The notes beneath the pieces were generated by a model, which worked only from the letters and a program-made list of their open reading frames with translations, ran no database searches and had not been told where the DNA came from. This document shows positions 13,418 through 14,952 of a DNA stretch of 64,000 nucleotides, piece by piece. The translations under genes and the position numbers were made by a program. This DNA is from Puccinia triticina (Eukaryota; Basidiomycota; Pucciniomycetes; Pucciniales; Pucciniaceae), in the NCBI RefSeq assembly GCF_026914185.1, contig NC_070571.1, positions 2,170,001 through 2,234,000 on the forward strand. The letters are read 5' to 3'. The number at the start of each line of letters is the position of its first letter. The first letter of the stretch is position 1.

Positions 13418-14802
13418 TCAATTGGCTTGACGAACAAGATGGTCGGTGGTCAGATATCGATGGGCCCAGGCCTGAAAAAGGTCAATACGTTCCATGTGGT
13501 CGAATCCATTCGGAGAAGGGTTGCGGTTAGAGAACGCAACAAAGTCCTCGACCATTCCGACATAGAAATGAAAAAGGATAGCTGGTTCAACCGTGGCGGG
13601 AGTCGTTGGGACAATACCGTGTCGGCGGGTAAGAAGCGCTTCGATTTGATGAGGGCGAAGGAAGGGAAATTCCGTTATACCATAATCACCGCGAACAGAC
13701 GGCGAAGGGATGCGCGGGAAGCCCTCAATGGGTTCATTATCGTGGTCAGAAAGTTCATTGATTTCGGATCTGGGATGGGCCGGCTCGTTCTCAGTAGAAG
13801 CCAACTCATCCACCTCGATAGCCTGCTGAGTTTTGGGCTGCAATGGAAGGCCGCGAGGACGAACTGTCCAAGCGGGTAGCGGTGTCCAGGAGTCTTCAAG
13901 AGCAACTTGGTTGGACGATAAGACCTATGTAGATATACAACTCAATGGGCATCAGCACAGTTCTGCGCTGAGAAAAGAATCAAAAGAGTAACTTACCGGC
14001 GCTGGGGAACTGTCAGGGGCTCTTGGATGGAAGATGGGCGAGTCAGGGTTAGGCAAGCGATCTGGGGTTCGAGGGCAGTAGACCGGCGATCCGGCAACAG
14101 GATTAATACCCTCAGGCGGGCTAGAAGTTGGATACGGTGTTGGAGTTCTGAATCGGGGGTGAAGCCCAACCAAACCGGGAGGGATTGCCGGGGCTGCGAC
14201 CTCAGCTGCAGAGGAAGTCGAGCCAAGGAGAGTTTGGACGTTCGGAGGGGCCCGATCACTGTTATTAGAACCCAAGAACTACACAAGATAGGGTCAGATG
14301 GCAGTATGGGCAAAGATGACTAAAGAAAATACCTTACCGTCTCTAAAGTCTGCATGGTTGCATCGCCAACAATGAACGGTCGAAGAGCCACCGGGGACTC
14401 AAGACAGATGTCAGACATCATCAGCGAGTTTGAGAGATAGTCACGCTGGTCCTGGGTCCAGTTCATGTGATCAAGTGAAGAATGGGTTGGCGGCTCAGCA
14501 GGCGCATCAGCACGAGGCGTCTGGCGAACACAACAATCAGTTTCCCTTGAAATAATAAAACATCAGAGATACAGGGAAAGAAAACCTACCTTGGGGAATG
14601 GCTGCCCAAGAGGGTGGTGGTTTAAGAGGTTTCGATCGAAACCCATGGTATCAAGGACCGAGGAATTCATCTACAGAAGAGAGCATCGTTAGCAAGGATG
14701 AAAGTTGAATCTGAAGAAGGGAGGACGCACCTGTTTTGCAGCAGAACTCACACGAGGACGTAAATAATAAGGGTGTGAAGGTTGGCTAGAGGAGGTAGTC
14801 AT
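13418..14802 (-). CDS. Intron-bearing antisense gene inside element B
   Basis: Minus-strand gene, unknown function. The best model has five exons: 14802-14731, 14670-14590, 14520-14338, 14278-13997 and 13924-13418. All four introns (60, 69, 59 and 72 nt) are GT..AG and phase 0; every exon is a multiple of three, giving 374 residues. A TATAAAA box lies at 14901-14907 on the minus strand, about 100 bp before the ATG; an in-frame ATG at 14949 lies upstream of it. The protein is proline/serine-rich with a motif LPNPDSPIFHPR in exon 4, an acidic stretch in exon 5 and a hydrophobic-aromatic C-terminal region (residues about 315-374) containing FHFYVGMVEDFVAF. The same LPNP..SPI.HPR motif occurs in the antisense ORF of element A. 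Antisense placement would protect its introns during retrotransposition. Confidence 0.75.
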
Positions 14803-14900
14803 AACAGGGTCGATGGGGATTGAAGGAACTAATGCAAAAGGGTGGTTGGACGCTGAGGAGATGATGGGGAGGAAACCTGAATCAACGGAGAGAAGGCTTG

Positions 14901-14907
14901 TTTTATA
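14901..14907 (-). promoter_or_regulatory. TATA box of the antisense gene
   Basis: TATAAAA on the minus strand, about 100 bp upstream of the proposed start codon at 14802. If functional, the antisense gene is expressed independently of the LTR promoter. Confidence 0.5.
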
Positions 14908-14952
14908 CCCTTCAGAGAGCCTATCAGCCTTGCCCGTATGGCCGGACATCAC

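Follow-up and report, generated by a model that had tools for sequence, protein, structure and literature searches.

HBZ of HTLV-1 is a spliced antisense gene of a retrovirus. Its product is a nuclear protein that is important in the virus life cycle (PMC11963269), and the HTLV antisense promoter is described as lying inside the 3' LTR (PMC7264820). Plant Ty3 elements carry antisense ORFs (aORFs) between pol and the 3' LTR, with Grande (gene23), RIRE2, Retand (TRP28) and PvRetro13 as described cases; the Grande ORF is reported to have its own promoter, and a role of such ORFs as regulators of the element itself has only been proposed (PMC7264820, PMC11963269). Papers citing Zhao et al. (2011) describe brtn of Boty as an antisense gene of a Ty3 element of Botrytis cinerea (PMC7264820, PMC8365987). 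The word 'intron' is absent from the available text of PMC7264820 and PMC11963269, so no spliced antisense case appears there, and neither 'antisense' nor 'intron' occurs in the available text of PMC12210899. A limited literature search found no multi-exon antisense ORF in Ty3 elements, nor any in rusts.

We analysed a 64,000-nt stretch of Puccinia triticina DNA (the window), in which an LTR element, element B, carries an antisense gene. The gene runs on the minus strand from 14802 to 13418 and has five exons of 72, 81, 183, 282 and 507 nt (stop included), which encode 374 residues. The four introns of 60, 69, 59 and 72 nt are all GT..AG and all in phase 0, in agreement with the first-pass annotation, which had claimed one 374-residue frame in five exons with four phase-0 GT..AG introns of 59-72 nt. 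Exon 1 (14731..14802, with the ATG at 14802) has the same length in 14/14 copies and is followed by intron 1 (14671..14730), exon 2 (14590..14670), intron 2 (14521..14589), exon 3 (14338..14520) and intron 3 (14279..14337). Exon 4 (13997..14278) is proline-rich and contains the motif IPPGLVGLHP. Intron 4 (13925..13996) is missing, together with its donor, in copy L020, and the last ~90 codons of exon 5 (13418..13924, including the stop) form a conserved helical domain. The span first given for the gene was 13418..14952; its end, 14952, lies 150 nt past the ATG, on the leader and promoter side.

A TATAAAA box, put forward by its placement, was found at 14901..14907 on the minus strand, 105 nt before the ATG, where an earlier reading had set it about 100 bp upstream. 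The window copy, L017 and L018 (the last two of subfamily 2) have it at -105, L035 at -104, and L036 and L037 at -86. It was not found in the stretch upstream of the start of L038, a start whose position was guessed. The placement was similar in 5/6 elements checked outside the window, two of those five coming from one subfamily. We infer that the antisense gene may have its own promoter, the candidate being internal to the element, with about 1.3 kb between it and the LTR.

The rust gene resembles the plant aORFs, as these are described, in its place, its antisense direction and its retention in most copies and across families. It shows the features of an aORF-3R: it lies between pol and the 3' LTR, is antisense to gag-pol and occurs in most copies, not in one transduced copy. 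It differs from the plant aORFs in having a frame split by four introns, a fungal host and no TRP28 match. As far as citing descriptions go, it shares with brtn the condition of an extra antisense gene in a fungal Ty3 element; however, the host of Boty is an ascomycete, not a rust, and no Botrytis protein was among the matches listed in our protein searches. The comparison with HBZ is one of how the gene works and claims no homology; the candidate rust promoter lies inside the element, and Pfam listed no bZIP match for the antisense protein and its relatives. The first-pass annotation had noted antisense ORFs as known in some plant Ty3 elements, with no spliced one known to be described in rusts. 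Within its limited scope the literature search agrees with the second part, but plants are not alone, as an antisense gene is known in the fungal Ty3 element Boty (PMC7264820). An antisense accessory ORF is thus of a known kind; what is new, within that scope, is that the gene has several exons and that a family of such genes exists in rusts.

Element B is bounded on the plus strand by a 5' LTR at 9186..9983 and a 3' LTR at 16169..16966, with ACGG target duplications at 9182-9185 and 16967-16970. The LTRs, previously described as apparently identical, showed 0 mismatches over the 799 bases starting at 9186 and 16169; given the 4-bp ACGG duplication, each LTR was read as 798 bp. Between them (10575..12977, plus strand) gag is fused in frame to the integrase C-terminus and the pol part is gone, with the join near 12232-12239. 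The deletion between gag and the integrase end amounts to 3,668 bp, as measured on one relative, and falls at a shared 8-nt microhomology, ACGGCATG. Only one match spanned the join among the best 40 of 169 first-look genome candidates, and this was the window itself. By coordinates, about 3.7 kb separates gag and the integrase end in all 13 other copies, and long pol frames were read in four of these 13. Pieces of L010 and L013 matched Pfam RVT_1, RT_RNaseH and Integrase_H2C2, in that order. The LTRs, the target duplication and the pol order reverse transcriptase-RNase H-integrase in these two relatives mark element B, on sequence characters, as a Ty3 retrotransposon. We rejected a non-autonomous family lacking reverse transcriptase, because among the 40 scored matches the deletion was seen once and was not common to several copies. 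The description of B as a retrotransposon without reverse transcriptase holds for the window copy and fails for the family, as the 13 relatives keep a pol-sized stretch and reverse transcriptase is encoded in both relatives scanned.

The LTR pairs of the 13 other copies differed by 0-4 mismatches over the compared length, gaps uncounted; for L017-L019 and L021 the comparison covered part of the 3' LTR. The claim that the gene had been copied recently with its introns is borne out by the window copy, an intact intron-bearing antisense gene in a recently inserted LTR element. Target duplications were 4 bp of the form NCGN and were exact in 8/10 copies with both flanks (the window, L009-L016 and L020). 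In L016 and L020 one side differed at a CpG. These duplications suggest a CG-centred insertion preference.

A DNA search of the 122.8-Mb, 18-contig Puccinia triticina assembly found 13 further copies of the antisense-gene region. Nine are close to the window copy (subfamily 1, 98.6-99.8% in the region, L020 in two pieces) and four stand at about 86% (subfamily 2, L021 in two pieces). All four GT..AG pairs were retained in 13/14 copies. No exon indel relative to the window was present in 11 of the 13 other copies, and exon lengths were equal in both subfamilies, whereas introns differed by indels between them. Seven of the 14 copies were fully intact (the window copy, L009-L013 and L016) and the other seven were broken by a stop, an insertion or a deletion. 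In L020 an 87-nt deletion across exon 4 and intron 4 has removed the donor and puts exon 5 out of frame, and L021 has an insertion of about 1 kb in exon 3. L014 has two stops, L015 one, and L017-L019 one each at an identical codon. The pattern that the first-pass annotation had named as counterevidence, other copies full of stops and broken splice sites, was thus not seen.

The shared stop is at codon 154, where CGA has become TGA in L014, L017, L018 and L019; L035 has a stop at the corresponding codon as well. The simple reading of these stops is recurrent CpG decay, and read-through is also possible. The LTR pairs of L017, L018 and L019 differ by 0, 2 and 1 bases (668-686 bp compared), yet all three carry TGA at codon 154. 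Either this lineage moved with a truncated gene of its own, or there were repeated hits at the CpG site. Near-identical LTRs together with a common stop would mean that the antisense gene may not be needed in cis.

The gene is not confined to this one element: related genes occur across a large Ty3 clade and in a second rust species. Exon 5 gave 114 genome matches at E<=10 and 91 at E<=0.01, a few of them pieces of one gene. Neighbouring integrase ends were taken from the best 150 of 1073 candidates, with an adjacency cut-off of 5 kb. Among the 91 stronger matches, 70 lay tail-to-tail with a listed integrase end (median distance 609 bp), 1 lay otherwise and 20 had no listed neighbour; the corresponding numbers for the 23 weaker matches were 16, 0 and 7. 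The 14 copies described above were retrieved by the antisense gene itself, so the integrase ends provide the independent count. An antisense neighbour was present at 86 of these best 150 of 1073 ends, 81 of them among the 110 with the highest scores and 5 among the remaining 40; 64 ends were without a detected antisense match. Family L083 has no detected match, yet it has an antisense ORF with similar motifs; absences in this count may therefore reflect low sensitivity.

Of eight distant families examined, six had the integrase end in the retrieved stretch, in convergent orientation, and for L037 and L040 it was listed 3-4 kb away, also convergent. Across these six families, identity to the window ranges from 91% down to 74% for the integrase and from 57% down to about 25% for exon 5. 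Antisense divergence broadly parallels integrase divergence, the antisense protein evolving much faster, and this parallel speaks for old joint descent. Exon ends in L035-L037 were placed by hand from homology. In family 4 (L036 and L037) the homologous places are occupied by four introns, all GT..AG and 60-69 nt long; L037 has two stops. In L035, three of four introns pass the GT..AG test; the exception is intron 1, whose homologous acceptor lacks AG. Exon 4 of L035 contains a stop. Exon number varies in more distant families.

Profile searches gave at least 24 and at least 28 proteins among the matches listed. The species-named proteins among them belong to P. triticina or P. graminis f. sp. 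tritici and are annotated as hypothetical or uncharacterized. Two proteins of P. triticina race 1, PTTG_28511 and PTTG_05371 (partial), span joins 1-3 and 1-4, and family-3 DNA has introns at the places of these joins. Both are known here as protein sequences of gene models and are not proof of splicing. Several P. graminis relatives (such as P0012, P0016 and P0018) have glycine-arginine-rich N-terminal parts, as in RNA-binding proteins; L041 also has a glycine-arginine-rich stretch, an open frame whose place in the gene is inferred.

The antisense protein has 13.9% proline and a pI of 5.55, and its domain could be aligned across families at 21-30% identity. AlphaFold2 run on the exon-5 alignment gave a mean pLDDT of 64.5, with residues 1-14 and 19-66 below 50. 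The model was helical from about residue 81, with block means of 83-93 except for 62 at residues 101-110. The predicted chain is rich in proline and for the most part disordered, and it ends in a conserved helical domain. This domain had no Pfam match and no convincing fold match, and PF04195 (TRP28) was not listed by hmmscan for the 374-aa protein at E<=1 or for 41 exon-5 relatives at E<=0.1. No clear host homologue was found, the named proteins among the matches listed being from Puccinia only.

Selection on the spliced frame was measured between subfamilies by the Nei-Gojobori method (10 copies against 3, L021 left out). A dN/dS test on other genome copies had been proposed as a check on the gene, and it gave 0.27 (range 0.24-0.31), with dS 0.33 and dN 0.088. 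Differences at the first, second and third codon positions between the window copy and L019 were 36/23/86, a third-position excess. In the window copy the five alternative frames across the joined exons contained 8-30 stops, and their ratios were 0.34-1.76; only the proposed frame combined zero stops with a low ratio. Exons were 85-92% identical between subfamilies and introns 57-85%; intron 1 stood at 56.5% compared with 89% for exons 1 and 2. For exon 5, the most diverged pair in each of 10 families gave ratios of 0.09-0.80, nine of the 10 being at or below 0.44. The outlier, F11 (0.80), had few changes, and the less diverged F3 pair L035-L044 gave 0.62. These codon comparisons show the antisense gene to be under purifying selection at the protein level. 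Within subfamilies dN/dS was 1.2 and 1.0, so that single copies decay freely. In subfamily 1, 64 of 86 variants were CpG transitions, as would be expected if inserted copies are methylated and decaying; for P. graminis, CG methylation has been described (PMC8444563).

We consider it highly probable, from conservation and position, that the gene is spliced, codes for a protein and belongs as an antisense accessory gene to a large Puccinia Ty3 clade. The region could instead act as an antisense RNA, convergent transcription yielding dsRNA and small-RNA silencing and the frame being incidental. The tail-to-tail layout would overlap gag-pol RNA, many small RNAs from Gypsy LTR elements are described in the sister species P. 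graminis (PMC8444563), and a dsRNA idea has likewise been raised for plants (PMC7264820). However, an RNA role predicts neither the between-subfamily ratio of 0.27 nor the third-position excess, the constant exon lengths or the alignable protein domain; as an explanation it is improbable, and such a role could exist besides the protein. We give similarly little credence to the idea that an ancestral element took up a host gene on a single occasion and that this gene is now a functionless passenger in decay. Ratios near 1 within subfamilies and the seven broken copies of 14 would fit such a passenger, but single-copy decay is expected of any transposon gene, and the integrase end, at 0.22-0.23 between the same two subfamilies, also gave 0.48 and 1.16 within a subfamily. 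Constraint between subfamilies and within most families, the antisense match adjoining 86 of the 150 best integrase ends, and the lack of a clear host homologue among the matches listed all speak against it. A chance open frame or a shadow of a sense-strand gene is extremely improbable and is held refuted by copy conservation and frame-wise dN/dS, since reverse frame -1, with a ratio also low at 0.34, has 14 stops in the window copy while the proposed frame alone is open with a low ratio, and homologous annotated proteins occur in two species.

For the protein-coding reading, the gene, situated between integrase and the 3' LTR and tail-to-tail with gag-pol, would be transcribed by RNA polymerase II from the in-element promoter, spliced and then translated. 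Its five-exon structure, which is kept both within the gene's own family and in family 4, has been copied by retrotransposition with the introns. These survive copying because the reverse-transcribed genomic RNA carries only their complement, which splicing cannot remove. Position, conservation and analogy with the plant antisense ORFs point, tentatively, to an accessory regulator that may act in trans on the element's transcription, silencing or particle cycle; this is the role we favour, at somewhat below even probability. An unlikely further proposal is that an old, fast-evolving spliced antisense gene across the rust Ty3 clade works against, or adjusts, host silencing or copy number. The message must come from integrated DNA by splicing in the nucleus and is unreadable from genomic RNA, so its dose would report the number of integrated, transcribable copies. 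If this were true, the antisense gene would be a built-in copy sensor or an anti-silencing factor.

A transposon gene normally loses its introns in each round of retrotransposition; here the antisense direction of the gene has let them persist. This persistence can be tested in the genome on a large set of homologous copies that can be dated. The analysis also singles out, from the 'hypothetical proteins' annotated in two cereal rust genomes, an unrecognised protein family, which helps annotation to separate transposon genes from host genes.

Several further features were observed in the window. Element B is inserted into an outer element, A, which has an antisense ORF of its own on the minus strand (17515-18156, 214 aa), a single open frame after the integrase end. 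This ORF and exon 4 have the motif PNPxSPIxHPR in common, and four full-length copies of the ORF are present in the genome at 93-100%, the window included. ORFs of 371 and 349 aa at 36219-37334 and 47223-48272, both on the minus strand and about 11 kb apart, belong to a duplicated region with pieces 82-94% identical in DNA; both end in a cysteine/histidine pattern that we take to be RING-finger-like. A large inverted repeat at 43329-45324 has 579-nt arms at 96% and is made of ~158-nt repeats. A 589-aa ORF at 29494-31263 has a long CAA/CAG (polyQ) tract and a possible CENP-B-like helix-turn-helix.
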